Assembly: GCF_900102075.1 (NCBI RefSeq)
Contig: NZ_FNAV01000014.1
Coordinates: 1 to 64,000 of the forward strand
Origin: Salipiger thiooxidans
Lineage (GTDB): Bacteria; Pseudomonadota; Alphaproteobacteria; Rhodobacterales; Rhodobacteraceae
Reading direction: 5' to 3'
Length of the DNA stretch: 64,000 nt
The notes under the pieces were generated by a model. It ran no database searches. It was not told where the DNA came from and saw only the letters and a list, made by a program, of their open reading frames with translations. Made by a program: the position numbers and the translations under genes. Each line of letters begins with the position of its first letter. Position 1 is the stretch's first letter. This document shows positions 4,332-53,668 of this stretch, in pieces.

Positions 4332-4371
4332 AGTGCCTCCCTGCCCAGTGCGGGCGCCTCAGTGACGAGCT

Positions 4372-34392: not shown

Positions 34393-35085
34393 TCAGGCGT
34401 CGGACGGGCTCTGGTTGTCGATGAGCCACTGCCGCACGGTCTCGAGCTTGTGCTCGAGGTGCATCTTCAGCACCACCGACAGCCGTTCGCCGTCGCGGGT
34501 CTCGAGGCATTCCATGATCTGCTCATGCTCGTCCGTGGCCTGCGCCCAGCGGTCCTGCGTCATGTTGGCCACGTAGCGGGCCCGGCGCACACGCGCGGCG
34601 AGCGAGCGGTACTGGATGGCCAGCGTCTCGTTGCGGGCGGCCTCGAGGATGGCCTCGTGGATCCGCTGGTTGACCTCGAAATACTTGGCGAGTTCGCGCT
34701 TCTCGTAATGCTTCACCATCTGGCGGTGCAGCACCCGGATGCGGCCGATCTCGTCATCGGTGATGTGCTTGCAGGCAAGCTCTCCGGACAGCGCCTCGAG
34801 CGCCCCCATCACCGGGAAGACCTCGTCCAGATCCTCGGTGGTGATGCGGCTCACCCAGGCGCCGCGGTTGGGCTCGAGCGACAGAAGCCCCTCGGTCGCC
34901 AGCACCTTCAGCGCCTCGCGCAGCGGGGTGCGGGACACGCCGTAGAAGGTGCAGAGGTCCTTTTCTGGCACGCGGATCCCGGCGGCGAGATCGCCGTTCA
35001 CGATCTGCTCGCGAATCGCGTCGGTCAGTTCCTCGTGCAGCGATTTCCTGCGGAAGGCGGGCTGTGTCGAAAGAGCGGTCGTCAT
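34393..35085 (-). CDS. GntR family regulator, FadR/FCD type, divergent from bhcA
   Basis: A 230-residue regulator. The winged helix holds VPEKDLCTFYGVSRTPLREA (recognition helix) and GLLSLEPNRGAWVSRI (wing). The FCD domain shows VNQRIHEAILEAARNE, DEHEQIMECLE and KMHLEHKLE, giving the usual His ligands. It stands divergently from bhcA, where the characterised cluster of Paracoccus denitrificans has the IclR-type activator BhcR. Two exact 13-bp repeats in the 237-bp gap are good candidate sites. I infer that it regulates the whole bhcA-maeB operon; the effector may be glyoxylate or glycolate. Confidence 0.9.
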   Translation of the reverse strand: MTTALSTQPAFRRKSLHEELTDAIREQIVNGDLAAGIRVPEKDLCTFYGVSRTPLREALKVLATEGLLSLEPNRGAWVSRITTEDLDEVFPVMGALEALSGELACKHITDDEIGRIRVLHRQMVKHYEKRELAKYFEVNQRIHEAILEAARNETLAIQYRSLAARVRRARYVANMTQDRWAQATDEHEQIMECLETRDGERLSVVLKMHLEHKLETVRQWLIDNQSPSDA

Positions 35086-35144
35086 CTCTGGTCACCTATT
35101 GTGAATCTCTGGCCCCCACGAACAGGCGCAAACCCATCCCGCTG

Positions 35145-35157
35145 TGCATTCATAATT
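35145..35157. promoter_or_regulatory. TGCATTCATAATT box 1, putative GntR operator
   Basis: TGCATTCATAATT at 35145-35157, directly followed by ATTCAT, is repeated exactly at 35257-35269, 112 bp away. It lies 60 bp upstream of the GntR start, a likely autoregulatory position. Confidence 0.55.
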
Positions 35158-35235
35158 ATTCATTTTTATGTCGCACGACAAGCCGTAACCTTTTCCCTGT
35201 CATACCAGCGAAAATCCCACAGGTCATCTTAGCTG

Positions 35236-35275
35236 TTGACACATGTCCGCCCAAACTGCATTCATAATTCATAAT
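35236..35275 (+). promoter_or_regulatory. bhcA promoter with TGCATTCATAATT box 2
   Basis: TTGACA (35236-35241) is a consensus -35 box. About 17-21 bp later come CATTCA and CATAAT, possible -10 boxes, inside the second copy of TGCATTCATAATT (35257-35269). A further CATAAT at 35270-35275 follows. A regulator bound there would cover the -10 region, suggesting repression released by an inducer. The bhcA ATG is 48 bp downstream. Confidence 0.5.
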
Positions 35276-35322
35276 TGCCGACGCGGGGATGTCTCCGGCT
35301 GTGGCGCAAGGGAGGAACAGAG

Positions 35323-36513
35323 ATGACACACAGGGCAGGACGCCATTTCCTTCAGATCCCCGGGCCGAGCCCCGTTCCGGATCGGGTACTGAGAGCGATT
35401 TCCGCGCAGACGATGGACCACCGCGGGCCGGAGTTCGCCGAGGTGGGGCGCAAGGCGCTGGACGGCATGAAGACGATCTTCAAGACCGACCAGCACGTCT
35501 TCATCTACCCCTCCTCGGGCACCGGCGCGTGGGAGGCCGCTCTGGTGAACGTGCTGTCCGAGGGCGACCAGGTCCTGATGTACGAGACCGGCCATTTCGC
35601 CACGCTGTGGAAGAAGATGGCCTCGAAGCTGGGCGTCGAGGCCGAGTTCATCGAGGGCGACTGGCGCGGCGGCGCAGATCCCGACCGGATCGAGACCCGC
35701 CTGCGCGAGGACAGCGAGCACAAGATCAAGGCGGTCTGCGTGGTCCATAACGAGACCTCGACCGGTTCGGTCTCGCCCATCGCGCAGGTGCGGCAGGCGA
35801 TCGACGCCGCCGGGCACCCTGCGCTGCTGATGGTCGACACGATCTCGGGTCTGGCCTCCATCGACTTCCGTTTCGACGAGTGGGGTGTGGACGTGGCGGT
35901 GTCGGGCTCGCAGAAGGGGCTGATGCTGCCGCCGGGCCTGTCCTTCAACGCGGTGAGTGAAAAGGCCTTCGAGCATTCCAAGACCGGCGGCATGCGCCGT
36001 TCCTACTGGGACTGGCGCGAGATGGCGGCGATCAACCCGACCGGCTATTTCCCCTACACCCCCGGCACCAACATGCTCTACGGCCTGAACGAGGCCATAT
36101 CGATGCTGCACGAGGAAGGGCTCGACAACGTCTTCGCCCGTCACCAGCGGCACGGGGCGGCGACCCGCACCGCCGTACGGCACTGGGGACTCGAGGTGCT
36201 CTGCCGGCAGCAGGGGCAGGAAAGCGGCGTGCTGACCGCCGTGCTCATGCCCGAGGGGCACAGCGCGGATGCCTTCCGCGCAACCGCTCTGCGCCACTAC
36301 GACATCTCTCTGGGCAACGGTCTGTCCAAGGTTGCCGACAGGGTCTTCCGCATCGGCCACCTCGGTGACATCAATGACCTGACGCTTGCGGGCACGCTCA
36401 CCGGGGTCGAGCTTGGCCTGAGGAAATCCGGCGTCCCCCACAAGGAGGGCGGTGTCGCCGCCGCGATGGCAGAGCTGGAGCAGACCCGCTTCGAGACGAT
36501 CGCGGCCGAGTGA
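35323..36513 (+). CDS. bhcA: L-aspartate--glyoxylate aminotransferase BhcA
   Basis: A 396-residue class V PLP aminotransferase. It shows the serine/alanine-glyoxylate aminotransferase landmarks: IPGPSPVPDRVLRAI at the N-terminus, YPSSGTGAWEAALVN (PLP phosphate), LMVDTISGLASIDF (PLP Asp), the lysine in VSGSQKGLMLPPGL and VFRIGHLGDINDL near the end. The presence of bhcB, bhcC and bhcD in the same operon makes BhcA the precise assignment: it transfers the amino group from aspartate to glyoxylate, giving glycine and oxaloacetate. GGGAGGAAC precedes ATG 35323. Confidence 0.92.
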   Translation: MTHRAGRHFLQIPGPSPVPDRVLRAISAQTMDHRGPEFAEVGRKALDGMKTIFKTDQHVFIYPSSGTGAWEAALVNVLSEGDQVLMYETGHFATLWKKMASKLGVEAEFIEGDWRGGADPDRIETRLREDSEHKIKAVCVVHNETSTGSVSPIAQVRQAIDAAGHPALLMVDTISGLASIDFRFDEWGVDVAVSGSQKGLMLPPGLSFNAVSEKAFEHSKTGGMRRSYWDWREMAAINPTGYFPYTPGTNMLYGLNEAISMLHEEGLDNVFARHQRHGAATRTAVRHWGLEVLCRQQGQESGVLTAVLMPEGHSADAFRATALRHYDISLGNGLSKVADRVFRIGHLGDINDLTLAGTLTGVELGLRKSGVPHKEGGVAAAMAELEQTRFETIAAE

Positions 36514-36548
36514 CGGCTTGCCCGGCGTGCCCGCGATGCCGGGCACCG

Positions 36549-36579
36549 CATATCCGGCGGAGAGCAGCCGCCGGATATG
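36549..36579 (+). other. perfect 12-bp hairpin between bhcA and tctC
   Basis: CATATCCGGCGG (36549-36560) pairs perfectly with 36568-36579 around a 7-base loop, and a weaker inverted repeat (GCCCGGC ... GCCGGGC) precedes it. No T-run follows. It may protect the bhcA mRNA end or partially attenuate downstream genes. Confidence 0.6.
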
Positions 36580-36637
36580 GGAGGCTTTCGGCATGGAGGT
36601 GCCGCGCCGTCCCGTTCACCCAGGGAGGAGAGACCAC

Positions 36638-37597
36638 ATGACCCAACTGGCACGACATCACCTGCGCGCGGCCGTGGCCGTTGCGGCAGCGGTACTGACC
36701 GCAGCCCCGGCCCTTGCCGCGGACTACCCCTCGCGCACCGTCGAGGTGATTCACCAGTACGGCCCCGGCGGCGGCACCGACCGCTTCATCCGCGCCATCG
36801 CCGAACCGATGCAGGAGGCCACCGGCCAGAGCTTCGTGCCGATCTCGATCGCCGGCGGCGGTGGTGTCCCGGCCTATGTCACCTTCCTGCAGCGCCCCGC
36901 CAACGGCTACACGCTGGTGTCGCTCAGCCCCGATGACGTGATCAACCACGCGCTTGGGCGGATCGACCTGACGCAGGTCCTGCCGCTGGTGCGCATCCAG
37001 TACGACCAGGGCCTGCTGCTGGTCTCCAAGGACAGCGAGCTGAAGTCGCTCGACGACGTGCTCGCCGCCGAGGCGGCAAGCCCGGGCGGGCTCAAGGTCG
37101 GCGTCACCGGCTCGGCCGGCTTCGACGACGCGCTGATCGGGCTCTTCAACGAGAAGGCCGGGACCGAGCTGGCCACCGTGCCCTTCGGCGCGGCAGAGAT
37201 GGTCTCGAATACGCTCGGCGGCCACCTCGACATGATGTACGAGGAATACGGTCCCACCCGCGGCCTGATCGAGTCCGGCGACCTGATCCCGCTCGTGTTG
37301 TTCTCGGACGAGCGGCTGGCGGAACTGCCCGACGTGCCCACAGCCAAAGAGCTGGGCTACGATGTCACCCTCGGCCGCTGGCGCGGGTTCGGCATCAAGC
37401 CAGACACCGACGCTGCCGAACTCGAGACGCTGGTCTCGCTGTTCCGCGACGCCGCCGCCGACGAGGGCTACAAGAAGGTCGAGGCCGAGAGCGCGCTGCA
37501 GTACCGCTCGGAGTTCATGGGGCCGGAGGAGTTCCAGACCTTCCTCGACAAGGAAATCGAGACCTATTCCCAGATCATGAACCAGCTCGGTTACTGA
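36638..37597 (+). CDS. TctC/Bug family periplasmic substrate-binding protein in the BHAC operon
   Basis: A 319-residue Bug-family receptor with a clear Sec signal (AVLTAAPALAADYPSRTVEV, cleavage after ALA). The glycine-rich HQYGPGGGTDRFIRAIAEPM loop replaces the usual PYPAGGG, so the binding pocket may differ from standard Bug proteins. AGGGAGGAG precedes ATG 36638. It is followed by tctB and tctA and lies inside a BHAC operon, which suggests uptake of glycolate, glyoxylate or a precursor, not demonstrated. Confidence 0.9.
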   Translation: MTQLARHHLRAAVAVAAAVLTAAPALAADYPSRTVEVIHQYGPGGGTDRFIRAIAEPMQEATGQSFVPISIAGGGGVPAYVTFLQRPANGYTLVSLSPDDVINHALGRIDLTQVLPLVRIQYDQGLLLVSKDSELKSLDDVLAAEAASPGGLKVGVTGSAGFDDALIGLFNEKAGTELATVPFGAAEMVSNTLGGHLDMMYEEYGPTRGLIESGDLIPLVLFSDERLAELPDVPTAKELGYDVTLGRWRGFGIKPDTDAAELETLVSLFRDAAADEGYKKVEAESALQYRSEFMGPEEFQTFLDKEIETYSQIMNQLGY

Positions 37598-37657
37598 CCG
37601 GCCGGCGCGGCGTGCCTCTCGCAGAGGCACGCCCCAGCCGTGGGAGGGGCTGGCGCA

Positions 37658-38176
37658 ATGCTACACAAACTGTCCGAAGTGGTCGTTTTCGCGGCCATGA
37701 CCATCGCCTCGGTGGCACTCTGGTTCACCGCCGACGCGCTGCCGGTGTCCAGGCGCTACGAGCAGGTGGATTCCGATCTCTGGCCCAAGCTGGTGTTCGG
37801 TGCGCTGGCGCTCTGCTGCGCGGTGCATCTCGCGCAGAAGGTCGCGGGGCTCATCGCCGCGCCCTCGGGCGGGCCGCGCTCGGAAGACGAGGCCATCGAG
37901 GCCTACACGCCCGACGGCTACTACCTGCGGCTCGTGCTCACCGGCGCGCTGATCGTGGGCTACTTCATCGCCCTGCAATATATCGGTTTCCTGCTCGCCA
38001 CGATGATCTTCCTATGGGTCGGATCGTGGATCCTGCCCTACCGGAACACCCTCGCGAAGCTGGTCTTCGCGCCGGTCTTCACCATCCTGCTCGCGGCCTT
38101 CTTCAGCTACGGGCTGTCGCTGTCGCTGCCCCGTGGCAGCGGGATCTTCTACGAGCTCAGCCAGGCGCTCTTCTGA
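37658..38176 (+). CDS. tctB: tripartite tricarboxylate transporter, small permease TctB
   Basis: A 172-residue TctB-like protein with four hydrophobic segments and the block QVDSDLWPKLVFGALALCC near the first loop. GGGAGGGG lies 9 bases ahead of ATG 37658, so I prefer it to the upstream in-frame GTG 37640. It sits between tctC and tctA with short gaps, all in the BHAC operon. Confidence 0.85.
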   Translation: MLHKLSEVVVFAAMTIASVALWFTADALPVSRRYEQVDSDLWPKLVFGALALCCAVHLAQKVAGLIAAPSGGPRSEDEAIEAYTPDGYYLRLVLTGALIVGYFIALQYIGFLLATMIFLWVGSWILPYRNTLAKLVFAPVFTILLAAFFSYGLSLSLPRGSGIFYELSQALF

Positions 38177-38197
38177 GCCCCAGCACGGGAGTATACC

Positions 38198-39712
38198 ATG
38201 CTTGATGCATTCGTTTCCGCCGCCGGGTACATGGTCGGCAACCCCATGAGCTTCCTGCTGATCATCTTCAGCGTGGTCTGGGGCATCGTCTTCGGCGCCG
38301 TCCCCGGGCTCACCGGCATCGTGGGGGTCGCGCTGCTCATCCCCTTCACCTTCGCTTTCGACCCGACCGAGGGCATGCTGCTGCTGGGCGGGGTCTACGT
38401 GGGCTCGACCTTTGGCGGCTCGATCTCGGCGATCCTGTTCAACACCCCCGGCTCGCCCGAGGCGGCCTGCACCTCGCTCGACGGCTACCCGATGGCCAAG
38501 CGCGGCGAGGCCGGCAAGGCGCTGGGGATCGCGCTTGCGGCCTCGGCGGTGGGCGGCATCTTCGGCACGCTGGTGCTGATGTTCGCGGCGCCCCCGCTGG
38601 CGCGGCTCGCGCTCGAGTTCGGCCCGGCGGAATACTTCGCGCTCGCCGTGCTCGGCATCACCGCGATTGCCTCCATCGGGGGCGGCTCGCTCATCAAGGG
38701 ACTGATCGCGGGCCTTCTGGGGCTGGCCGTGGCGCTCATCGGGCTCGACCCGCTGACCGGCGTCGCGCGCTTCACCTTCGGCAACATGATGCTGCTGACC
38801 GGCGTGAGCTTCATCGCCGCCATCATCGGGATCTTCGCGCTGGCCGAGGTGCTGCAACGCTTCGCCGACGGCCCGCCCAAGGGCGAGCAGATGGCGCAGG
38901 TCTCGACCCAGCTGCCGAGCCTGGCGGAGTTCCTCGCCACCAAGGTCACCCTGCTGCGCTCGTCGGTCATCGGCACCGTCATCGGTGCCCTGCCCGGCGT
39001 CGGCGCCACCACCGCGGCGTTCATCAGCTACTCCGAGGCCTTCCGCTGGTCCAAGCGCCCGGAGCTCTTCGGCAAGGGCTCGCCCGAAGGCATCGCGGCC
39101 CCCGAGGCAGGCAACAACTCCGCCGTCGGCGGCTCGATGATCCCGCTGCTGGCGCTGGGGATCCCCGGCTCGGCCACCACCGCGGTGATGATCGGCGGCC
39201 TCACCATCCACGGCATCGTGCCGGGGCCGATGCTGATGCAGAACAACTCGGACCTCGTCTACTCGGTGTTCATCGGGATGCTGCTCGCCAATGTCCTGAT
39301 GCTGGTCTTCGGTCTGCGGGCGGCGAGGCTCTTTGCGGTCGTGCTCAAGGCGCCTTACCAGCTCGTGGGGCCCGCCATCGTGGTGCTCTGCATGACCGGG
39401 GTCTTCGCGCTCAACAACAACGTGTCGGACGTGGCGGTGATGCTGGTCTTCGGCGGCGTGGGCTTCTTCCTCAAGAGCTACGGCCTGCCGGTGGCGAGCT
39501 TCATCATCGGGTTGGTGCTGGGTCCCATAGCCGAGGTCAGCCTGCGCCAGGGACTCATCCTCGCCGACTACGACATGATGGCCCTTGTCACCCGGCCGAT
39601 CGCCGGCACGCTCCTGCTGCTCTCGGCCCTGTCGCTGGTTTACGGCATCTGGGGGAAGCTCCGCCGGCCGCCCTCGGACGGTCCGGGCAACGCGCAACCC
39701 GAAGCCAGCTGA
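38198..39712 (+). CDS. tctA: tripartite tricarboxylate transporter, large permease TctA
   Basis: A 504-residue TctA protein with about 12 hydrophobic segments. FGAVPGLTGIVGVALLIPFT near residue 32 is the first signature, and GALPGVGATTAAFISYSEAF and LLALGIPGSATTAVMIGGL are the second half. CGGGAG is 7-12 bases before ATG 38198. It completes the transporter lying between bhcA and bhcB. Confidence 0.92.
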   Translation: MLDAFVSAAGYMVGNPMSFLLIIFSVVWGIVFGAVPGLTGIVGVALLIPFTFAFDPTEGMLLLGGVYVGSTFGGSISAILFNTPGSPEAACTSLDGYPMAKRGEAGKALGIALAASAVGGIFGTLVLMFAAPPLARLALEFGPAEYFALAVLGITAIASIGGGSLIKGLIAGLLGLAVALIGLDPLTGVARFTFGNMMLLTGVSFIAAIIGIFALAEVLQRFADGPPKGEQMAQVSTQLPSLAEFLATKVTLLRSSVIGTVIGALPGVGATTAAFISYSEAFRWSKRPELFGKGSPEGIAAPEAGNNSAVGGSMIPLLALGIPGSATTAVMIGGLTIHGIVPGPMLMQNNSDLVYSVFIGMLLANVLMLVFGLRAARLFAVVLKAPYQLVGPAIVVLCMTGVFALNNNVSDVAVMLVFGGVGFFLKSYGLPVASFIIGLVLGPIAEVSLRQGLILADYDMMALVTRPIAGTLLLLSALSLVYGIWGKLRRPPSDGPGNAQPEAS

Positions 39713-39815
39713 GCCCACGCTCGCGTCACGCGCGTCCTGCCTGAATTCCCTGCCGTCCGGGCCCATGCCGGCCCGGACCCGCCCCTCTCACGCCCGCTCT
39801 CCAGGAGGCCACACC

Positions 39816-42749
39816 ATGAACGCACCCATGCCTCAGCGCACCACCCCCGCCGCCCGCGCGGTGGCCAGGTCGCAGGCCTTCGAGAAGGCCCTCTCGGCGG
39901 CGATGGAGGGGGCCACGGCTTTCGGTGCCTTCGCCCGGGGCCGCTATTCCACCGATGCCTCGATCTACCAGATCATGCCCACGGGCGTGGCCTATCCCAA
40001 GTCCGCCGACGACATCGCCGCGGCGCTGCAGATCGCGGCCGAGCACGGCGTGCCGGTCATCGCCCGCGGCGGCGGCACCTCGCAGAACGGCCAGCCCATC
40101 GGGCGCGGGCTGATCCTCGACATGTCGCGGCATTTCAACGACCTGATGGACTACGATCCCGCCGCGCGCACCGTCACCGTCCGTCCCGGGATGGTGCTGA
40201 ACACGCTCAACGACCGGCTGCGGCAGGATGGGCTCTTCTTCCCGGTCGAGCCCTCGACCGCCTCGCGCTGCACCATCGGCGGCATGTGCGGCAACAACTC
40301 CTCCGGCGCCCGTTCGCTGCGCTTCGGCAAGACCGTCGACAACGTGCTCGCCATGGAGGGCCTGCTGCACGACGGCGACACCTTCCGGCTGGATGCCGCG
40401 CCCTGGTCCGAGAATGCCTCGCCCCGGATGCGCGAGATCATGAGCAGCCTCACCGCACTCGCCGACACCCACCGCGACCGCATCGAGGAGATCTTCCCCA
40501 AGGTCCAGCGCCGCGTCGGCGGTTACAACCTCGACGAGCTGCTGCCCGCGCAGCCCAACCTCTCGCGCCTGCTGGTGGGCTCCGAAGGCACGCTGGCGGT
40601 CAGCACCGCGATCACGCTGAAGCTTTCGCAACTCCCCAAGCACCGGGTGATGGGCGTCTGCCATTTCCCCGACTTCCGCTCGGCGATGGAGACGACGCAG
40701 CATCTCGTGGCGCTCGGCCCGGTCGCGGTCGAGCTGGTGGACAACAACGTGCTCGTCATGGGCGCCGACATCCCCGCCTTCGTGCGCACCATCGGCGACA
40801 TCACCAAGGGTACGCCCAACTGTCTGCTGCTCTGCGAATTCGCGGGCGACGATCTGGACGCGCTGAAGATGGACCTCAAGCGTCTCGAGCAGTGCATGGC
40901 CGATCACGGCCACCCCGATGCGGTGGTTGAGGTGGTCGAGCCGCACCGGCAGAAGGCGGTCTGGGGCGTGCGCGAGGCCTGCCTCAACATCATGATGTCG
41001 ATGAAGAGCGAGGGGAAACCCGTCTCCTTCATCGAGGATTGCGCCGTCCCGCTCGAGCATCTCGCCGACTACACCGACGGCATCACCGACCTCTTCACCC
41101 GCCACGGCACGCGGGGGACGTGGTACGCCCACGCCTCGGTCGGCTGCCTGCACGTGAGGCCGATCCTCAACATGAAGACCGAGGAAGGTGCGAAGACCAT
41201 GCGCGCCATCGCCGAGGAGGCCGCCGAGCTCGTGCGCAAGTACAAGGGCTCGTTCTCGGGCGAGCACGGCGACGGCATCTCGCGCTCGGAATACGTCGAG
41301 CCGATGTTCGGCAGCGAGCTCACCCGCGCCTTCGAGACGGTGAAGGACAGCTTCGACCCCGAGAACCGCCTGAACCCCGGCAAGATCGTGCGCCCGCTGC
41401 GGATGGACGACCGCGACCTGATGCGCTTCAAGCCCGGCTACAAGACCAGTCTTCCCGCCGAGCCCGCGCTCGACTGGTCGGACTGGGGCGGCTTCGGCGG
41501 CGCGGTCGAGATGTGCAACAACAACGGTACCTGCCGGAAGCTCTCGGGCGGGACCATGTGCCCGTCCTACCGCGCCACCCGCGACGAGCAGCACCTGACC
41601 CGCGGCCGGGCCAACACCCTGCGGCTCGCGATCTCGGGCCAGCTGGGCGAGGACGCCTTTACCTCGACCGAGATGAAGGAGACCCTGGATCTCTGCGTTT
41701 CGTGCAAGGGCTGCAAGCGCGACTGCCCGACCGGCGTCGACATGGCGCGGATGAAGATCGAGGTCCTGCACCATTACCACAAGCGCCACGGCCTGCCCCT
41801 GCGCGAGAAGCTCATCGCCCACATGCCGCGCTACGCGGCGCTGGCCTCGCGCTTTGCGCCGCTGGTCAACCTGCGCGACAAGGTGCCGTTCATCGCCAAG
41901 CTGTCCGAGCAGTGGCTGGGATTCTCGGCGAAACGCACCCTGCCGCAGTGGCGCAAGCCCTGGGCCGAGGACCGCGCGCCCGCCAACCTGCGTGACGTGA
42001 AGGGCGACGGGCGCGACATCGTGCTCTTCGGCGACACCTTCAATCGCTACTTCGAGTCCGAGAACCTCGAGGCCGCCGAGCGCGTGCTGCTCAAGGCCGG
42101 CTACCGGCTGCATCGCGTGGTGGTCGAGGGCAGCAGCCGTCCGATGTGCTGCGGGCGGACCTACCTCGCATCGGGCCAGACCGACGAGGCCCGCGCCGAG
42201 CTGCGCCGCACTCTGGGCGCGCTCAAGCCCTTCGTCGAGGCAGGCGCGCGGGTCGTGGGGCTCGAGCCCTCGTGCATGTTCACCTTCCGCGACGAGATGA
42301 CCGCGCTGCTGCCCGGTTCCGAGACCGGCTTCATGGCAGGCAAGGCGCTGATCTTCGAGGAATTGCTGGCCGAGGACATCGCCGCCGGTACGCTCGTGAT
42401 GCCGGTGGGCGACGCGGGCGGACAGGTGGTGCACGTGCACGGCCACTGCCACCAGAAGGCCTTCGGTGCCATGGGCGCGGTCGAGACCGTTCTGCGCGGG
42501 GTTCCCGGCCTCGACGTGCGGATGATCGAGAGCTCGTGCTGCGGCATGTCCGGGGCCTTCGGCTACGCCGCCGAGAATTACGAGGTCTCGATGAAGATGG
42601 GCGAGGCGGCGCTGCTTCCGGCGGTGCGCGAGGCTGCCCCGGATGCGCTGATCGTGGCCGACGGCACCAGCTGCCGCCACCAGATCCACGACGGCGCCGC
42701 GCGCGAGGCGATCCATGTCGCCCGCGTGCTCGACCGATACCTGCAATGA
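39816..42749 (+). CDS. fused FAD-linked / 4Fe-4S 2-hydroxyacid dehydrogenase (YdiJ/GlcDF-like)
   Basis: A 977-residue fusion. An N-terminal FAD-binding type 4 domain has RGGGTSQNGQPIGRGLILDM (about 85-105) and GGMCGNNSSGARSLRFGKT. FAD-oxidase C follows, with GEHGDGISRSEY (about 482). An Fe-S module has CNNNGTC ... CPSY (about 567) and CVSCKGCKRDCPTGVD (about 627). Two CCG-type Cys-rich motifs close the protein (RPMCCGRTYLASG and ESSCCGMSGAFGY, about 905). The plan is that of YdiJ and of GlcD joined to GlcF. Inside a glyoxylate-using operon the best guess is glycolate oxidation to glyoxylate feeding BhcA/BhcC; D-lactate or D-2-hydroxyglutarate remain possible. Confidence 0.85.
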   Translation: MNAPMPQRTTPAARAVARSQAFEKALSAAMEGATAFGAFARGRYSTDASIYQIMPTGVAYPKSADDIAAALQIAAEHGVPVIARGGGTSQNGQPIGRGLILDMSRHFNDLMDYDPAARTVTVRPGMVLNTLNDRLRQDGLFFPVEPSTASRCTIGGMCGNNSSGARSLRFGKTVDNVLAMEGLLHDGDTFRLDAAPWSENASPRMREIMSSLTALADTHRDRIEEIFPKVQRRVGGYNLDELLPAQPNLSRLLVGSEGTLAVSTAITLKLSQLPKHRVMGVCHFPDFRSAMETTQHLVALGPVAVELVDNNVLVMGADIPAFVRTIGDITKGTPNCLLLCEFAGDDLDALKMDLKRLEQCMADHGHPDAVVEVVEPHRQKAVWGVREACLNIMMSMKSEGKPVSFIEDCAVPLEHLADYTDGITDLFTRHGTRGTWYAHASVGCLHVRPILNMKTEEGAKTMRAIAEEAAELVRKYKGSFSGEHGDGISRSEYVEPMFGSELTRAFETVKDSFDPENRLNPGKIVRPLRMDDRDLMRFKPGYKTSLPAEPALDWSDWGGFGGAVEMCNNNGTCRKLSGGTMCPSYRATRDEQHLTRGRANTLRLAISGQLGEDAFTSTEMKETLDLCVSCKGCKRDCPTGVDMARMKIEVLHHYHKRHGLPLREKLIAHMPRYAALASRFAPLVNLRDKVPFIAKLSEQWLGFSAKRTLPQWRKPWAEDRAPANLRDVKGDGRDIVLFGDTFNRYFESENLEAAERVLLKAGYRLHRVVVEGSSRPMCCGRTYLASGQTDEARAELRRTLGALKPFVEAGARVVGLEPSCMFTFRDEMTALLPGSETGFMAGKALIFEELLAEDIAAGTLVMPVGDAGGQVVHVHGHCHQKAFGAMGAVETVLRGVPGLDVRMIESSCCGMSGAFGYAAENYEVSMKMGEAALLPAVREAAPDALIVADGTSCRHQIHDGAAREAIHVARVLDRYLQ

Positions 42750-43069
42750 TACCGGCCCGTCCCCCCCACCCGGAAGTCTGCGTCATGTGCCTTCGGGCCC
42801 CGACCATCATTGCCGGCCCGACGAAGCCGCCCAAGGGATGCGACGCCCCCGCGATCGTGCGCCGCGCCGCCAACACCTGTGGCGTGGCCCTGGGCGTGGT
42901 GGCGGGCAAGGTGTGCCGCATCGGTCATCCCGGCAGCCTGACCGGGGTCATGAGGCCTTCGAGGCTGGCCAGGCTCGAGGGGTGCATGGCCGAGATCGGC
43001 TCGGGCGTCGCTGCCGCGCAGGAATTCTTCCGCAGACACCCCGCCACCACCGCCAGAGAGGTCGCCTGA
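42746..43069 (+). pseudogene. C-terminal remnant of a glyoxylate-type class V aminotransferase
   Basis: A 107-codon frame whose second half reads VAGKVCRIGHPGSLTGVM and GSGVAAAQEFFRRHPA. This matches the C-terminus of serine/alanine-glyoxylate aminotransferases (VFRIGHLG...LNDVM...GSGVAAAQE). The preceding GCDAPAIVRRAANTCGVALG fits the region just before. The PLP-binding two thirds are absent, and conserved residues are altered (Phe to Cys, Leu to Pro in RIGHLG). The frame overlaps the dehydrogenase stop and the bhcB start, so it could still be translated, but an aminotransferase of this size cannot be active. Confidence 0.7.
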
Positions 43070-44034
43070 TGAACGCCCCAACGATGATCATCCCCACCTA
43101 TGACGACATGCTCGCCGCGCACGAGCGGATCAGGCCGCACATCCGCCGCACGCCGGTACGCACGTCGGACTATCTCAATGAGCTGACCGGCGCCGAGCTC
43201 TTTTTCAAGTGCGAGAACTTCCAGGAGCCCGGCGCCTTCAAGGTGCGCGGTGCCGCCAACGCGGTCTTCGGCCTCTCCGAGACACAGGCGGCAAAGGGCG
43301 TGGCGACGCATTCCTCGGGCAACCACGCCTCGTGCCTGAGCTATGCCGCCATGCTGCGCGGCATCCCCTGCAACGTGGTCATGCCGCGCACCGCGCCACA
43401 GGCCAAGAAGGACACCGTACGCCGCTACGGCGGGCGGATCACCGAATGCGAGCCCTCGACGTCTTCGCGCGAAGAGACCTTCGCCCTGATCCAGGAAGAG
43501 ACCGGCGGCGATTTCGTCCACCCCTACAACGACCCGCGCGTCATCGCCGGGCAAGGCACCTGCTCCAGGGAATTCATCGAGCAGACCGGCGGGCTCGACA
43601 TGGTGGTGGCGCCCATCGGTGGCGGCGGCATGATCTCGGGAACCTGCCTGACGCTCTCGACGCTGGCGCCCGAGTGCCAGGTCATCGCCGCCGAGCCCGA
43701 GCAGGCCGACGATGCCTATCGCAGCTTCAAGGCCGGTCACATCATCGCCGACGACGCGCCCAAGACCATCGCCGACGGGCTGCTGGTGCCGCTCAAGGAC
43801 CTGACCTGGCATTTCGTCTCGAACCACGTGTCCGAGATCTACACCGCCTCGGACCCCGAGATCGTCGACGCGATGAAGCTGATCTGGAAGCATCTGCGCG
43901 TGGTCATGGAGCCGTCGAGCGCCGTGCCTCTGGCCATCGTCCTCAAGAACCCCGACGCCTTCCGCGGCAAGCGCGTGGGCCTCGTGATCACCGGCGGCAA
44001 TGTCGATCTCGACCGCCTGCCCTGGCTTGCCTGA
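43069..44034 (+). CDS. bhcB: beta-hydroxyaspartate dehydratase BhcB
   Basis: A 321-residue fold-type II PLP enzyme related to threonine dehydratase and serine racemase. The PLP lysine lies in FKCENFQEPGAFKVRGAANA. SSGNHASCLSYAA and the glycine loop APIGGGGMISGTCL bind the cofactor phosphate. In the BHAC it eliminates water from (2R,3S)-beta-hydroxyaspartate, giving iminosuccinate. The operon context with bhcC and bhcD separates it from ordinary threonine dehydratases. Its ATG overlaps the stop of the aminotransferase remnant by one base. Confidence 0.93.
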   Translation: MNAPTMIIPTYDDMLAAHERIRPHIRRTPVRTSDYLNELTGAELFFKCENFQEPGAFKVRGAANAVFGLSETQAAKGVATHSSGNHASCLSYAAMLRGIPCNVVMPRTAPQAKKDTVRRYGGRITECEPSTSSREETFALIQEETGGDFVHPYNDPRVIAGQGTCSREFIEQTGGLDMVVAPIGGGGMISGTCLTLSTLAPECQVIAAEPEQADDAYRSFKAGHIIADDAPKTIADGLLVPLKDLTWHFVSNHVSEIYTASDPEIVDAMKLIWKHLRVVMEPSSAVPLAIVLKNPDAFRGKRVGLVITGGNVDLDRLPWLA

Positions 44035-44086
44035 GCCGCCCCGCGACTTTCCGAGTCATTCCGAGACACCAAAGGGAGACACCCCG

Positions 44087-45250
44087 ATGAAAGACATAGC
44101 CGATTTCGACCAGTACGACGTGGGTTTCGACATTCCGGCCAAGCCCGGCATGGACGAGGCGGACATCCAGACCCCCTGCCTCGTGCTCGACCTCGACGCG
44201 CTCGAGCGCAACATCAAGGTGATGGGCGACTATGCCAAGGCGCACGGCATGCGCCACCGCGTGCACGGCAAGATGCACAAGTCGGTGGACGTGGCGAAGC
44301 TGCAGGAAACGCTCGGCGGCGCCGTCGGCGTCTGCTGCCAGAAGGTCTCCGAGGCCGAGGTCTTTGCGCGCGGCGGCATCAAGGACGTGCTCGTGTCCAA
44401 CCAGGTGCGCGATCGGCAGAAGATCGACCGGCTGGCGCAGCTGCCCAAACTCGGCGGCCGGATCATCGTCTGCGTCGATGACGTGGACAACGTGGCCGAG
44501 TTGTCAGAGGCGGCGGTCAGGCATGGCACCGAGCTCGACATCTTCATCGAGATCGACTGCGGCGCCGGGCGCTGCGGCGTGTCCTCCACCCCCGCGGTGA
44601 TCGAGATCGCCAAGGCCGTCGAGGCCGCGCCCAACCTCAGTTTCGCGGGCATTCAGGCCTATCAGGGCGCGATGCAGCACATCGACAGCTACGAGGCGCG
44701 GAAAGAGAAGCTCGACACCGCCATCGCCATGGTCGAGGACGCCGTGGCCGGGCTCAAGGCCGAGGGCATCGACTGCGAGCTGGTCTCGGGCGGCGGCACC
44801 GGGTCCTATTATTTCGAGAGCAACTCGGGCGTCTACAACGAGCTGCAGTGCGGCTCCTACGCCTTCATGGACGCCGACTACGGCCGGATCCTCGACAAGG
44901 ACGGCAAGCGCATCGACCAGGGCGAGTGGCAGAACGCCTTCTTTATTCTCACCCAGGTCATGAGCCACGCCAAGGCCGACAAGGCGATCTGCGACGCGGG
45001 GCTCAAGGCGCAGTCGGTGGACTCGGGGCTTCCGGTGATCTTCGGTCGCACCGATGTCGAATACGTCAAGTGCTCGGACGAGCACGGCGTGATCTCGGAC
45101 CCCGAGGGCGTGCTCAAGGTGGGCGAGAAGCTGCGGCTGGTGCCGGGCCACTGCGACCCCACCGCCAACGTGCACGATTGGTACGTGGGCGTCCGGAACG
45201 GCAAGGTCGAGACGGTCTGGCCGGTCTCGGCGCGCGGCAAGGCCTACTGA
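44087..45250 (+). CDS. bhcC: beta-hydroxyaspartate aldolase BhcC
   Basis: A 387-residue fold-type III PLP enzyme of the D-threonine aldolase/DSD1 group. The N-terminal barrel motif is IQTPCLVLDLDALERNI with the PLP lysine in HRVHGKMHKSVDVAKLQ. DIFIEIDCGAGRCG and LVSGGGTGSYYFE bind substrate and cofactor. Near the C-terminus LVPGHCDPTANVHDW carries the His/Cys metal ligands. In the BHAC it joins glycine and glyoxylate to beta-hydroxyaspartate, the carbon-carbon-forming step. The length equals the characterised Paracoccus enzyme. AAAGGGAG precedes the ATG. Confidence 0.94.
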   Translation: MKDIADFDQYDVGFDIPAKPGMDEADIQTPCLVLDLDALERNIKVMGDYAKAHGMRHRVHGKMHKSVDVAKLQETLGGAVGVCCQKVSEAEVFARGGIKDVLVSNQVRDRQKIDRLAQLPKLGGRIIVCVDDVDNVAELSEAAVRHGTELDIFIEIDCGAGRCGVSSTPAVIEIAKAVEAAPNLSFAGIQAYQGAMQHIDSYEARKEKLDTAIAMVEDAVAGLKAEGIDCELVSGGGTGSYYFESNSGVYNELQCGSYAFMDADYGRILDKDGKRIDQGEWQNAFFILTQVMSHAKADKAICDAGLKAQSVDSGLPVIFGRTDVEYVKCSDEHGVISDPEGVLKVGEKLRLVPGHCDPTANVHDWYVGVRNGKVETVWPVSARGKAY

Positions 45251-45300
45251 GCCCACGCGCCTTTGCAGATAGGGGCAGGCCCGCGAGGGGCCTGCAAGCC

Positions 45301-45339
45301 GCCCGTGTGCAGGCCACCCTTTGCCCGTTGCACACGGGC
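45301..45339 (+). other. 11-bp inverted repeat in the bhcC-bhcD gap
   Basis: GCCCGTGTGCA (45301-45311) pairs perfectly with 45329-45339, with a 17-base loop. The 116-bp gap is long for this operon. The hairpin may tune the relative amount of bhcD mRNA. Confidence 0.5.
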
Positions 45340-45366
45340 GCACCACATGACGACAGGAGAGCAACG

Positions 45367-46332
45367 ATGCTGATCGTTCCCGAGCGCGAGATCGGCGCGC
45401 TGATGACGCGCGCCTCGGCCTTCGAGGCGGTGGAGAAGGTCTTCGCGGCCATGGCCTCGGGCGAGGCCTACAATTTCCCGGTGATCCGCGAAGCCATCGG
45501 GCACGAGGACGCGCTCTACGGCTTCAAGGGCGGCTTCGACCGCGCCGGGCTGACGCTGGGGCTGAAGGCGGGGGGCTACTGGCCGAACAACCTCGAGAAG
45601 TTCAGGGTCATCAACCACCAGTCCACGGTGTTTCTCTTCGATCCGGACACCGGCAAGGTCGCGGCCATGGTCGGCGGCAACCTCCTGACCGCGCTGCGCA
45701 CCGCCGCTGCGTCGTCGGTGTCGATCGCGCATCTGGCGCGCAGGGACGCGAAGGTCATGGGCATGGTCGGCGCCGGGCATCAGGCGACGTTCCAGCTGCG
45801 CGCAGCCCTCGAGCAGCGCCCCTTCGAGAAGGTCATCGGCTGGAACCTTCACCCCGAGATGCTGCCCAACATCGAGACCGTCGCCGACGAGGCCGGCCTG
45901 CCCTTCGAAGCGGTGGCGCTCGAGGGCATGCGCGAGGCGGACGTGATCGTGTCGATCACCTCGTCCTTCGCGCCGAGCCTGATGGCCGCCCACGTGAGCC
46001 CCGGCACTCACCTCGCCTGCATGGGCACCGACACCCGGGGCAAGCAGGAGGTCGAGGCCGCGCTGCTGGCCGTGGCCACCGTCTTTACCGACGAGGTCGC
46101 CCAGTCGGTCAGCATCGGCGAGGCGCAGCACGCGGTGGCCGAGGGGCTGATCTCGGAAAGTGACGTCCACCAGATCGGTGCGGTGATCAACGGCAGCCAC
46201 CCGGGACGCCGCTCGGACGAGGAGATCACGCTCTTCGACGGCACCGGCGTGGGGCTGCAGGATCTTGCGGTTGCGGCTGCGGTGGTAGACCTAGCAGTGG
46301 AGAAGGGCATCGCCATCGAGGTCGATGTCTGA
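45367..46332 (+). CDS. bhcD: iminosuccinate reductase BhcD
   Basis: A 321-residue member of the ornithine cyclodeaminase/mu-crystallin family. FRVINHQSTVFLFD and NLLTALRTAAASSVSIAHLA are typical of the substrate half. The Rossmann motif is MGMVGAGHQATFQLRAAL, and ACMGTDTRGKQEVE is the conserved loop. In the BHAC this enzyme reduces iminosuccinate to L-aspartate with NAD(P)H, regenerating the amino donor for BhcA. GGAGAG precedes ATG 45367. The gene is followed after 22 bp by a GAPDH-like gene. Confidence 0.93.
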   Translation: MLIVPEREIGALMTRASAFEAVEKVFAAMASGEAYNFPVIREAIGHEDALYGFKGGFDRAGLTLGLKAGGYWPNNLEKFRVINHQSTVFLFDPDTGKVAAMVGGNLLTALRTAAASSVSIAHLARRDAKVMGMVGAGHQATFQLRAALEQRPFEKVIGWNLHPEMLPNIETVADEAGLPFEAVALEGMREADVIVSITSSFAPSLMAAHVSPGTHLACMGTDTRGKQEVEAALLAVATVFTDEVAQSVSIGEAQHAVAEGLISESDVHQIGAVINGSHPGRRSDEEITLFDGTGVGLQDLAVAAAVVDLAVEKGIAIEVDV

Positions 46333-46354
46333 CCCCAGCTCATGAGGCATCGCA

Positions 46355-47341
46355 ATGGCACGTCCCGTCCGCATCTTCATCAATGGCTTCGGTCGCATCG
46401 GCCGCACTGTCTTCCGACAGGTGGTCACCGGCAGCCGCCCGGTCGAGATCGTGGGCATCAACGACGTGGCGCCGCTCGAGACCTGCGCCTACCTGCTGCG
46501 CTATGACAGCGTCTATGGCCCCTTCCCCGCCCCGGTGGAGACGGCCCCAGATGCGCTGATCGTGGCCGGGGGCCGCGTGCCCTTCCACGCGGTGACCGAC
46601 CTGCGCGAGCTCGATCTCACGGGCGTCGACGTGGTGCTGGAATGCACCGGGCGGGCGAACCGCCGCGACGTGGCCGAGGCCGGGCTCGACGCCGGTGCGG
46701 CACGGGTGCTGATCTCGGGGCCGTCGAAGGTGGCTGACCTGACCGTGGTGCTGGGCGCCAGCGACGCGCTGCCCGAGGGCGTGCGGATCGTGTCGAACGC
46801 GTCCTGCACCACCAACGCCATTGCGCCGCTGCTGCGGGCGCTCGACGAGTGCTCCGGCATCGCGCGGGCGCATGTCACGACGGTTCACTGCGCCACCGGC
46901 AGCCAGCCCACCGTCGACCGCCCCGGCGAGACGCTCGAACGCAGCCGCGCGGCCAACGAGTCCATCGTGCCCACCTCGACCAGCGCCGCCGCGCAGGTGG
47001 CGAACGTGCTGCCGGGGCTCGCGGACCGGCTCAGCATCGCCGCCGTGCGGATCCCGTCGATCTCGGTCTCGGCGGTGGATGCGGTGATCCAGTTCACCAC
47101 GCCGCCCGCTGACGTCGAGGCGCTGCTCGACCGGATCGCCGACGGACAGGTCATCGGTTCCTGCGCCGATCCCTGCGTCTCGTTCGATTTCCGCGGCCGG
47201 CAGGAGAGCCTGATCCTCGCCCGGACAGAAACCCAGTCCGTGGGGCCCGACCAGCTGCGGATCTTCGGCTGGTACGACAACGAATCCGGCTTTTCCGCGC
47301 GGATGCTCGACATGACGGAGCGCCTCGCCCTGCCGTCCTGA
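46355..47341 (+). CDS. glyceraldehyde-3-phosphate dehydrogenase-like protein in the BHAC operon
   Basis: A 328-residue type I GAPDH-family enzyme. NAD binding is shown by INGFGRIGRTVFRQ and the Asp in GINDVA; the catalytic Cys is in NASCTTNAIAPLL and the His region in HVTTVHCATGSQPTVDRP. The C-terminus has GWYDNESGFSARMLDM. The SNAxxK and TG phosphate-site context is partly changed (ATGSQPTVD for the usual TxxQ), so the substrate may be another phosphorylated or non-phosphorylated aldehyde, as in erythrose-4-phosphate dehydrogenase. It lies between bhcD and maeB with short gaps, so it is co-expressed with the cycle. Its purpose there is unknown. Confidence 0.82.
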   Translation: MARPVRIFINGFGRIGRTVFRQVVTGSRPVEIVGINDVAPLETCAYLLRYDSVYGPFPAPVETAPDALIVAGGRVPFHAVTDLRELDLTGVDVVLECTGRANRRDVAEAGLDAGAARVLISGPSKVADLTVVLGASDALPEGVRIVSNASCTTNAIAPLLRALDECSGIARAHVTTVHCATGSQPTVDRPGETLERSRAANESIVPTSTSAAAQVANVLPGLADRLSIAAVRIPSISVSAVDAVIQFTTPPADVEALLDRIADGQVIGSCADPCVSFDFRGRQESLILARTETQSVGPDQLRIFGWYDNESGFSARMLDMTERLALPS

Positions 47342-47357
47342 CACCAAGGAGACACCC

Positions 47358-49637
47358 ATGGCCCTCGACAAGACCACGCCCCCGCCCGAACAGCAGGCCG
47401 CGCTCGACTACCACGCCTTCCCCACCCCCGGTAAGCTCGAGATCCGCGCGACCAAGCCCATGGCCACGGCGCGGGATCTGTCGCGGGCCTATTCTCCGGG
47501 CGTCGCCGATGCCTGCATGGAGATCGCGCGCGACCCGTCGCTGGTCACCCGTTACACCGCCCGGCGAAACCTCGTGGCGGTGGTCTCGAACGGCAGCGCG
47601 GTGCTGGGGCTCGGCAACATCGGGGCGCTGGCCAGCAAGCCGGTGATGGAGGGCAAGGCGGTGCTCTTCAAGAAATTCGCCAACATCGACTGCTTCGATC
47701 TCGAGGTGAACGAGACCGATCCCGAGGCACTGGCCGACTGGGTCTGCAAGCTTGAACCCACCTTCGGGGCCATCAACCTCGAGGACATCAAGGCGCCCGA
47801 CTGTTTCGTGGTCGAGCGGATCTGCCGCGAGCGCATGGGCATCCCGGTGTTTCACGACGACCAGCACGGCACCGCCATCGTGGTCGCCGCCGCCGCCCAG
47901 AACGCGCTGCACATCGCGGGCAAGGAGCCGTCGGCGGTGCGGCTCGTGGGCATCGGCGCGGGGGCTGCGGGCACCGCCTGCCTCGCGATGCTTGCCAATC
48001 TCGGCATCCCCGAGCGCAACATCACCGTCTTCGACAAGGATGGCGTGCTGCACCCGGGCCGCGACGACCTCGCCCCCGAGCAGCGCCGCTTCGCCCATGC
48101 GCCCGAGGGCACCACGCTGACCGAGGCACTGACAGGCGCCGACATGGTGCTGGGCGTTTCGGGACCCGGCGTGCTCACGCCCGAGATGGTCGCGGGCATG
48201 TCCGAGCGGCCGGTGATCCTCGCGCTCGCGAACCCGGTGCCCGAGATCATGCCCGACCTTGCCCGCGCCGCCGCCCCCGGCGCGATGATCGCCACCGGCC
48301 GGTCGGACATCCCGAACCAGGTCAACAACGTGCTCTGCTTCCCGTTCATCTTCCGGGGCGCGCTCGACGTCGAGGCGACCGAGATCAACGACGCCATGAA
48401 GCTCGCCTGCGTCGACGCCATCGCCTCGCTTGCCCGCCAGACCACCACCGCCGAGGTGGGCGAGGTCTACCAGGACGAGACGCTGAGCTTCGGTCCCGAC
48501 TACCTGATCCCCAAGCCCTTCGACCCGCGGCTGCTGCCCACCATTGCCGTGGCCGTGGCGCGCGCCGCGATGGAAAGCGGCGTGGCGCGCCGGCCGCTGG
48601 ATCTCGACGCCTACCGCGAGAGCCTCGAGGCGCAGGTGTTCCGCTCGTCGCTGACCATGCGCGGCGTGACCGAGGCGGCGCGCCGCTCGCGCCGGCGCAT
48701 CGTCTTTGCCGAGGGCGAGGATCGCCGGGTGCTGCGCGCGGTGCAGGGGCTGGCCGAGGACGGCATCCACACGCCGATCCTCGTGGGCCGCCCGGACGTC
48801 ATCGCGCAGCGGCTCGACCAGATGGAGCTGCCGGTGGTGCCTGGGCGCGACTTCGAGATCGTGAACCCCGAGAGCGACGAGCGCTACACCGATTACTGGC
48901 GCGACTACCACGAGTTGATGAAGCGGCAGGGGGTGACGCCGGACCTCGCCCGCGCCATCCTGCGCACCAACACCACCGCGATTGCCGCGCTGATGGTGCG
49001 CAGGGGCGATGCCGACAGCATGATCTGCGGTACCTTCGGGCAATATTCATGGCATCTCAACTACATCCGGCAGGTTCTTGAGACCGGTGGCCTGTCGCCC
49101 GCTGGGGCGCTGTCGCTCATCATCCTCGATGATGGGCCGCTGTTCATCGCCGACACCCACGTCAGCTTCGAGTCCGATGGCGCCACGCTTGCCCGCACCG
49201 TCGAGGCCGCCGCCCGGCACGTGCGGCGCTTCGGGATCGAGCCGCGCATCGCGCTTTGCTCGCGCTCGCAGTTCGGCAATTTCGACTGCCGCTCGGGAAT
49301 GGCAATGCGCGAGGCGCTGGCGATCCTCGACGCCAAGGGCGTGGATTTCGAATACGAGGGCGAGATGCACACCGAGCTTGCCCTGAACCCCGAGCTGCGC
49401 GAGCGGCTGCTGCCGGGCAACCGGCTGACGGGGCGCGCCAACGTGCTGATCTATGCCAACACCGACGCGGCGGGCGCGGCGCGGGACCTGCTCAAGGGCG
49501 TGGCCGAAGGGCTCGAGGTCGGGCCGATCCTGATGGGCATGGGCAACCGCGCCCATATCGTGACCCCCGAGGTGACCCAGCGCGGGCTCATCAACATCGC
49601 GACGCTCGCCAGCGCCGACGTGGCAAGCTACGGCTGA
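47358..49637 (+). CDS. maeB: NADP-dependent malic enzyme MaeB with phosphotransacetylase-like domain
   Basis: A 759-residue MaeB-type malic enzyme, converting malate to pyruvate and CO2 with NADP reduction. The malic domain has [12 protein letters not shown] and [20 protein letters not shown] with the catalytic Lys. The metal site is [13 protein letters not shown], and the NADP Rossmann motif is [16 protein letters not shown]. The C-terminal about 330 residues form an inactive phosphotransacetylase-like regulatory domain ([16 protein letters not shown] to the end). AAGGAG precedes ATG 47358. As the last gene of the operon it can drain C4 acids formed by the BHAC to pyruvate and supply NADPH. 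Confidence 0.92.
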
Positions 49638-51667: not shown

Positions 51668-51716
51668 GGATATCTCCTCCGGAGTTGAATGTGTGAGGGG
51701 GCCGAGGCCGGCCCGC

Positions 51717-52997: not shown

Positions 52998-53596
52998 GAC
53001 GCGTCTCCGAGGCGCGGTTCGCCGTGGGCGGCGCGGTGGGTCTCGTGGGCGGGGCCCTCGTCCTGCTCGGCCTCGAGCTCAGCCAGCGCCTCGCGCACCT
53101 CGTGGTCGACGAAGCCCGAGCCGCGGGCATCGCGCATCACTTCCGGCAGGCGCAAGGCCTCGGCCAGCATGAAGAGCACGGCCCCGAGTGGGATGATCGA
53201 CTGGGTGAGCTGCACCGAGACCGCCGGCAGCGTCACCAGGGTCATGCCCTCGAGAATGAGCAGCACTTCGAGCCCGGCATAGGCCATGAGGCCGAAGAAC
53301 AGGAAGACGCAGGCCTCGGAGAACACCGTGGCGGCGACGCGCATGTTGGGCGGAAGCGCGTTGACGACGCCGGGAAAGCCGATGTGCGCGCCCTTCAGCG
53401 CGGCGAGCGCGCTGCCGAAGTAGGTCATCCAGACCAGGCCGATGGAGGCGACCTCGTCATACCAGACCAGCGGGCTGCCGGCGTAGCGGAAGAGGGTTCC
53501 GCAGACGATAAGGATGGTCAGGGCCGCGACGATGGCGGCCGTGATCACCTCGAGCAGGGTTTCGAACCCCTGTCTCAGGCTGTTGAGCGATAGCAT
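52994..53596 (-). CDS. TRAP transporter small permease DctQ
   Basis: A 200-residue protein with four hydrophobic segments and the DctQ block SPLVWYDEVASIGLVWMTYF. The C-terminal tail of about 40 residues is unusually acidic and His-rich (DEGPAHETHRAAHGEPR), which is not seen in the other two DctQ proteins of the window. The gene follows dctP by 72 bp and is coupled to dctM. Confidence 0.88.
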   Translation of the reverse strand: MLSLNSLRQGFETLLEVITAAIVAALTILIVCGTLFRYAGSPLVWYDEVASIGLVWMTYFGSALAALKGAHIGFPGVVNALPPNMRVAATVFSEACVFLFFGLMAYAGLEVLLILEGMTLVTLPAVSVQLTQSIIPLGAVLFMLAEALRLPEVMRDARGSGFVDHEVREALAELEAEQDEGPAHETHRAAHGEPRLGDAS

Positions 53597-53668
53597 GTGT
53601 CTCTCCGGGGGAATTCGCTACGTGCCACGGGGCCGGCACCCCTCGGCGCCGGCCCCGCGACGTCAGGC

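Follow-up and report, generated by a model that had tools for sequence, protein, structure and literature searches.

A hybrid operon in Salipiger thiooxidans that may join a bhcA-less beta-hydroxyaspartate cycle gene set to a 2-hydroxyacid module

Introduction

In its known form the beta-hydroxyaspartate cycle (BHAC) is compact: four genes, bhcABCD, encode a cycle for glyoxylate. What, then, is the meaning of a BHAC gene set that stands in one long string with genes for import, oxidation and amino-group transfer, as it does in a 64,000-nucleotide stretch of Salipiger thiooxidans (contig NZ_FNAV01000014.1, positions 1 to 64,000; hereafter the window, from genome G000)? An original prediction, made from the letters of this DNA, had read the string as a complete extended BHAC with its own uptake system, an oxidase for a 2-hydroxyacid (perhaps glycolate), a malic enzyme outlet and a changed regulator. 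We find a complete, glycolate-specific reading only partly supported. Our preferred explanation, to which we give a probability of roughly 0.58, is a hybrid operon of two modules that live apart elsewhere, in which a duplicate bhcBCD set lacking bhcA has been joined to a 2-hydroxyacid module. Module 1 would comprise a GntR regulator, a tripartite transporter, a YdiJ-type (R)-2-hydroxyacid dehydrogenase with flavin adenine dinucleotide (FAD) and iron-sulfur (Fe-S) domains, and a class-V aminotransferase of the glyoxylate-using kind (hereafter AT); module 2 would comprise bhcABCD followed by a bhc-linked gene resembling glyceraldehyde-3-phosphate dehydrogenase (GAPDH) and by maeB. No paper on such a hybrid was found by title or abstract start in a search that lay outside most subscription journals.

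Results

Ten intact genes lie on the forward strand between 35323 and 49637, in the order AT, TctC, TctB, TctA, FAD/4Fe-4S dehydrogenase, bhcB, bhcC, bhcD, GAPDH-like gene and malic enzyme gene, with gaps of 16 to 124 bp except between the dehydrogenase gene and bhcB, where a remnant of the true bhcA is found. The BHAC enzymes are adjacent and exceed the cut-offs of their curated models: beta-hydroxyaspartate dehydratase BhcB (43069-44034; NF045641, 575.9 bits, cut-off 550), 3-hydroxy-D-aspartate aldolase BhcC (44087-45250; NF045642, 754.8 bits, cut-off 690) and iminosuccinate reductase BhcD (45367-46332; NF045643, 585.2 bits, cut-off 500). In these scores and in gene order the cluster resembles bhcABCD of Paracoccus denitrificans with its IclR-type BhcR, as described in the accessible part of PMC11323563. 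It differs from the cluster in that excerpt in lacking a working bhcA, in having a GntR-type gene beside it rather than BhcR (the changed regulator had been predicted, correctly), in the added AT, TctCBA, FAD/Fe-S, GAPDH-like and maeB genes, and in being itself a second copy in its genome.

The bhcA remnant (42785-43069, forward strand) is an open frame of 94 residues without the region of the pyridoxal phosphate-binding lysine, and its stop overlaps the bhcB start. Its translation aligns, with gaps inside, to the C-terminal part of BhcA from G011, a genome of the same genus (tblastn E = 5e-28 in a 340-base search). G011 carries the same operon with AT likewise in front, and there the place between the FAD/Fe-S gene and bhcB is taken by an intact BhcA (719.6 bits); because the same string occurs there with bhcA intact, its arrangement in the window is not due to chance. 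A third genome of the genus, G013, has the AT-TctCBA-FAD/Fe-S string followed by only a bhcB remnant, and a search next to that string gave no match for bhcA, bhcC, bhcD, the GAPDH-like gene or maeB. The three genomes thus form a series: intact in G011, bhcA lost in the window, bhc lost in G013. They are also the only ones among 20 genomes of the genus with an AT more than 90% identical. Two of them hold a further BHAC cluster. In G000 it is a complete bhcABCD with BhcR (401 bits, cut-off 350) on contig C26 (locus L031), and G013 has a standard cluster elsewhere too; in G011, no BhcC above the cut-off was found besides that of the hybrid operon. The predicted complete module thus stands as a string of import, 2-hydroxyacid oxidation, BHAC enzymes and malic enzyme, and fails in that its own bhcA is a stub.

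This series raises the alternative that the bhc part is a relic heading for loss as in G013, with only module 1 still useful here, and the presence of another full cluster in both G000 and G013 fits such a fate. Simple Nei-Gojobori estimates of the ratio of nonsynonymous to synonymous substitution rates (dN/dS) against G011, whose averages take in the periods on either side of the bhcA loss, speak on the other side: bhcB, bhcC and bhcD are intact and under strong purifying selection (0.066, 0.101 and 0.094), and maeB is likewise intact at 0.106, all near 0.1 or less. AT (0.065) and the FAD/Fe-S gene (0.061) lie in the same range, TctC is at 0.165, the GAPDH-like gene at 0.284 and the bhcA remnant, over 94 codons, at 0.47. 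We consider decay of the bhc part rather unlikely.

The first gene of the operon (AT, 35323-36513, forward strand) had been labelled bhcA. All the intact genes of that earlier list are present on one strand with short gaps; this label is the part that fell. Against the BhcA model NF045640, AT scores 436.2 bits (cut-off 650), and the BhcA of the other cluster in G000 scores 756.6 bits. A tree of 66 aminotransferases places 37 AT-type sequences in a separate group (SH-aLRT, a Shimodaira-Hasegawa-like branch test, 100) outside the canonical BhcA clade, the rest being 25 canonical BhcAs, three BhcA-like proteins (L131-L133) and the protein of PDB entry 6pk1; this was a quick search, and its rooting is unsure owing to the long 6pk1 branch. 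On score and clade together we rejected BhcA as the identity of the front gene, and since G011 carries AT and BhcA in one operon, the two are different genes. Positions 88 and 95 are Arg in at least 85% of the 25 BhcAs, versus Glu and Leu in at least 90% of the 37 AT sequences, and Arg115, Glu88 and Asp339 are typical of the AT clade. Because AT lacks the BhcA-typical residues, it may use an amino donor other than that of BhcA. Its top PDB sequence match, 6pk1 (355 bits), is a plant-type serine--glyoxylate aminotransferase, from which AT differs in the typical residues of its own clade. An AlphaFold model of AT has a mean predicted local distance difference test score of 82.5.

Could AT nevertheless have taken over the job of BhcA, so that the BHAC draws on another amino donor or acceptor and bhcA became losable? 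The constraint on bhcBCD in the window is in keeping with this, as is a cluster in Paracoccus onubensis with the order MatC/CitMHS-type carrier, AT, bhcB, bhcC, bhcD, GntR, GntR and FAD/Fe-S (75% identical), in which bhcA is not found. In a quick bhcBCD tree of 37 clusters (five loci were omitted for want of a gene), the AT-linked bhcBCD of P. onubensis is sister to the standard cluster of the same genome (SH-aLRT 100) and not to that of the window, so its arrangement arose separately, from a duplication of its own. Both genomes, however, retain a BhcA above the cut-off elsewhere, the differences between AT and BhcA fall at positions that may govern which donor is used, and AT is common in genomes without a BhcC above the cut-off (15 of 38). 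We regard such a takeover as possible but doubtful.

The fused FAD/4Fe-4S 2-hydroxyacid dehydrogenase (39816-42749, forward strand) scores 549.1 bits against the YdiJ model NF049975, below its cut-off of 1350 although still the best curated model, and 205.9 bits against the glcD model (cut-off 567.9). We aligned 38 module homologues, the window included, with E. coli YdiJ and GlcD and with LDHD. Five catalytic residues are retained in all 38. In the accessible part of PMC7801405, Asn443 of human D-2-hydroxyglutarate dehydrogenase (D-2-HGDH) touches the distal carboxylate; the corresponding position is Arg in 38 of 38 homologues and in YdiJ, and Leu in GlcD. At other D-2-HGDH sites, the 38 homologues have Ile (7) or Val (31) for Lys401, so that the Lys that binds the distal carboxylate is absent, Leu for Thr390, and Tyr at Tyr432. 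We read these residues as a basic distal pocket that would favour an acidic side chain, and glycolate is a possible substrate as well. The enzyme therefore resembles E. coli YdiJ, a D-2-hydroxyglutarate dehydrogenase, in fused architecture, catalytic residues and distal Arg, and differs from it in sequence (30% identity) and in its sub-threshold score. With GlcDEF it shares FAD-dependent 2-hydroxyacid dehydrogenase chemistry and the same five catalytic residues; it differs in being one fused protein without GlcE, and in its distal pocket.

These features bear on the reading of the locus as a complete extended BHAC for glycolate, in which the front gene does the work of BhcA and glycolate is turned into glyoxylate by the FAD/Fe-S enzyme. 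Relatives of AT are glyoxylate-using by annotation, and AT occupies the place of bhcA in P. onubensis. The GntR gene, the FAD and Fe-S domains and a GlcG-like gene present at 19 of 122 AT loci recall the E. coli glc operon, and a malate synthase G match lies near AT at 2 of the 122. The same reading has to contend with an AT that falls below the BhcA cut-off, in another clade, without the two BhcA-typical Arg positions and alongside BhcA in the G011 operon. It also meets a dehydrogenase with Arg where GlcD has Leu, whose best curated model is YdiJ, and GlcD-, GlcE- and GlcF-like genes next to each other on contig C33 of G000 (L242; best glcD match 439 bits, also below 567.9). We judge it unlikely. 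Membership of the FAD/Fe-S enzyme in the GlcD family of glycolate oxidases was rejected on scores and distal pocket; that glycolate is nonetheless the substrate is possible.

Rejected too were D-malate or D-2-hydroxyglutarate as sole substrate, since AT would then have no clear purpose, and the sulfolactate pathway (slc genes), whose sulfo-lyase was not recognised among the annotated genes that cover part of the neighbourhoods.

The distal pocket lends itself to yet another reading, in which tartrate, tartronate or another hydroxydicarboxylate is oxidised and aminated, feeding hydroxyaspartate or glycine plus glyoxylate into BhcB and BhcC. Arg and Tyr recur in the pocket of all 38 homologues. 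The carriers of the module are of the tripartite tricarboxylate transporter (TTT), TRAP or MatC/CitMHS types, a linked coenzyme A (CoA) transferase is closest to dicarboxylate-type models (under their cut-offs), and a malonyl-CoA synthase relative lies near AT at 6 of the 122 loci. The BHAC, however, uses (2R,3S)-hydroxyaspartate, and L-amino acids are the usual substrates of class-V aminotransferases. A tartrate gene was not recognised in the annotated neighbourhoods, nor was a paper on such a route found by title or abstract start. We consider a hydroxydicarboxylate route very unlikely.

That module 1 leads a life of its own is seen in a survey of 345 genomes of the family, where AT orthologues (at least 60% identity) occur in 38 by our count from the listing, one with an internal stop codon and one in two pieces. 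Within 37 AT neighbourhoods fetched from the family (a set to which those of the window and of genome G378 do not belong), we found FAD/Fe-S in 35, GntR in 30, DctM in 22, TctA in 8 and both a CoA transferase and an enoyl-CoA hydratase in 13; bhcB had no match in any of the 37. Named loci, taken as the best 80 of 587 confirmed stretches, gave a similar account: FAD/Fe-S in 67, GntR in 54, DctM in 25, TctA in 23, CoA transferase in 23, hydratase in 27 (both in 19) and bhcB in 2. The added parts are thus not specific to the BHAC. A BhcC above the cut-off was found in 145 of the 345 genomes (23 of the 38 with AT, 122 of the 307 without), and strict dependence of module 1 on the BHAC was rejected, given the ATs without such a BhcC and the neighbourhoods without bhcB. 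Clustering of the module's neighbours brought out transporter genes, CoA transferase, hydratase and the GlcG-like gene, and no further enzyme that is widely shared.

The module, for which the searches made found no name, occurs across Alpha-, Beta- and Gammaproteobacteria with AT, GntR and FAD/Fe-S all present, and TctC and TctA stand beside AT likewise in L098, L099, L100 and L103. The copy in the window differs in being joined head to tail with bhc genes. Its FAD/Fe-S enzyme belongs to a sub-group and shares 71-75% identity with the enzymes of P. onubensis, Bosea, Azospirillum and others, versus about 50-58% for most loci of the family. Besides P. onubensis, two further genomes show separate joinings of module 1 to bhc genes, which speaks for the hybrid reading. 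In Roseovarius confluentis, module 1 adjoins a standard bhc cluster. On a Tateyamaria omphalii plasmid (one of 4 plasmid matches inspected among 40 listed), a string of GntR, FAD/Fe-S, AT, TRAP and heme-binding (GlcG-like) genes stands beside GAPDH-like-bhcDCBA-bhcR. On plasmid pAM01 of Aminobacter sp. MSH1 (L259), an AT relative (64%) is neighboured by genes for urate hydroxylase PuuD, RidA, an amidase and members of the deacetylase and fumarylacetoacetate-hydrolase families, a context that suggests purine or ureide breakdown to glyoxylate. Together with malate synthase G and the P. onubensis cluster, these joinings point towards glyoxylate chemistry for module 1, without proving it.

The transporter genes are contiguous: periplasmic binding protein TctC (36638-37597; PF03401), whose start codon was picked by eye so as to include the signal peptide, small membrane subunit TctB (37640-38176) and large membrane subunit TctA (38198-39712; PF01970), all on the forward strand. 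TctC and TctA pass their Pfam cut-offs, as do the FAD/Fe-S, GAPDH and malic enzyme domains. TctB gave no Pfam or NCBIfam match in the frames searched and is named by position and by homologues in G011 and G013. Another TctA-like/TctC-like set with a GntR-like gene lies at 384-5145 of the window, at 29-41% identity to the operon's own genes.

At the other end of the operon, the GAPDH-like dehydrogenase (46355-47341, forward strand) scores 291.6 bits against GAPDH-I, under the cut-off of 367.2, and does not qualify as a housekeeping GAPDH. A GAPDH-like gene lies 3' of bhcD in 13 of 32 complete bhcABCD clusters fetched as a non-random sample, and 14 bhc-linked GAPDH-like sequences form one clade (SH-aLRT 100) that excludes three further GAPDHs from each of G000, G011 and G016. 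This clade is a conserved partner of the BHAC genes. Matches to maeB then follow in 4 of the 32 clusters, of which one is a short fragment and another is split in two. In the window, maeB (47358-49637, forward strand) encodes a malic enzyme with a phosphotransacetylase-like domain (Pfam malic, Malic_M and PTA_PTB), scoring 925 bits against PRK12861, under the cut-off of 1178.

Other bhc loci also depart from the standard form. Second bhcBCD sets are found at L236 (6468-11037) and L238 (6255-10708), with a partial one at L237, and none of the three sets has a bhcA or AT match. Directly 5' of bhcB in L236 and L238 lies a flavoprotein of the D-amino-acid-dehydrogenase type (87% identical between the two; PRK12409, 704.9 bits, cut-off 494); in L237 the flavoprotein match covers only 216 residues. 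L236 adjoins genes for benzoate dioxygenase and muconate cycloisomerase. In L038, an NCS1-family permease (10540-12117) lies between bhcC and bhcD, its nearest models, below their cut-offs, including allantoin permeases; an NCS1 symporter is likewise listed with bhcC and bhcD in a Defluviimonas plasmid match.

Divergent from the operon, a GntR/FCD-family regulator (34393-35085, reverse strand; Pfam FCD and GntR; closest NCBIfam model TIGR03338, under its cut-off) is kept beside AT in G011. The 237-bp region between it and AT holds two exact copies of TGCATTCATAATT, at 35145-35157 and 35257-35269 on the forward strand. Allowing up to 2 mismatches adds one match in the window, at 5218 (2 mismatches), which makes three versus 0.09 expected. 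A longer version of the pattern at up to 1 mismatch occurs in two places in G000 (both of them these), in one in G011 and in none in G013, and alignment of the divergent regions places related motifs at the same position in G011 and G013. The pair suggests a local candidate GntR operator.

Converging on maeB from the reverse strand is a further operon (49702-54751) of an enoyl-CoA hydratase family protein (49702-50487; PRK06144, 304 bits, cut-off 272), a family-III CoA transferase (50480-51667; Pfam CoA_transf_3, named NCBIfam models below cut-off) and a TRAP transporter (51717-54751; DctM 51717-52997, DctQ 52994-53596, DctP 53669-54751). Because relatives of these genes (42-60% identity) accompany AT in other genomes, and because G011 keeps them in the same place, the functional unit probably extends through this operon to about 54.75 kb. 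The original prediction had mentioned neither this operon nor the second bhcABCD with BhcR nor the glcDEF-like genes. Elsewhere in the window lie a BCCT-family transporter (32152-33801; top named model glycine betaine uptake, under its cut-off) and a 920-residue protein (18454-21216) whose match to a TOMM kinase/cyclase fusion model, 167 bits, is far under the cut-off of 705.75.

Discussion

If the locus is a hybrid of the two modules, its parts could work as follows. The transporter would import a 2-hydroxyacid, which the dehydrogenase would oxidise to a 2-oxoacid while passing electrons to the respiratory chain, and AT would move amino groups between amino acids and either glyoxylate or the 2-oxoacid so made. 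BhcC would join glycine and glyoxylate, BhcB would dehydrate and BhcD would reduce, giving aspartate. Because the hybrid's own bhcA is a stub, closure of the cycle in G000 would fall to BhcA from the intact cluster on the other contig, to AT, or to both. MaeB would serve as an outlet from C4 acid to pyruvate, a role consistent with the excerpt of PMC11323563 in which MaeB is among the gluconeogenic enzymes lowered in a P. denitrificans cceR mutant.

Several observations weigh against this account. Part of the constraint on bhcB, bhcC and bhcD may be historical, since the estimates also span time before bhcA was lost, and the dN/dS of the remnant itself is 0.47 and not 1. That G013 lost nearly all of the hybrid's bhc genes suggests that the bhc part may be dispensable. 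Across genomes, the association of AT with BhcC is weak (Fisher p = 0.022, kinship not corrected). Finally, we infer a single transcript from gene spacing, as a scan for promoters and terminators gave results no better than shuffled sequence.

Duplicate bhcBCD sets without bhcA bear AT and FAD/Fe-S genes in the window and in P. onubensis, or a flavoprotein gene in L236 and L238. From this we tentatively raise the possibility, itself doubtful, that BhcB-BhcC-BhcD is a portable core from glycine plus glyoxylate to aspartate, with an exchangeable front enzyme that in each case couples a different substrate.

A constrained bhcBCD set that lacks bhcA and shares an operon with genes for import, dehydrogenation and amino-group transfer would mean that other inputs can be wired to the carbon-conserving core of the BHAC. 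This would matter for the turnover of C2 acids in Rhodobacterales and for engineering aimed at glycolate or ethylene glycol, and the three related genomes, one intact, one with bhcA lost and one with bhc lost, offer a means to test the effect of redundancy on an operon.

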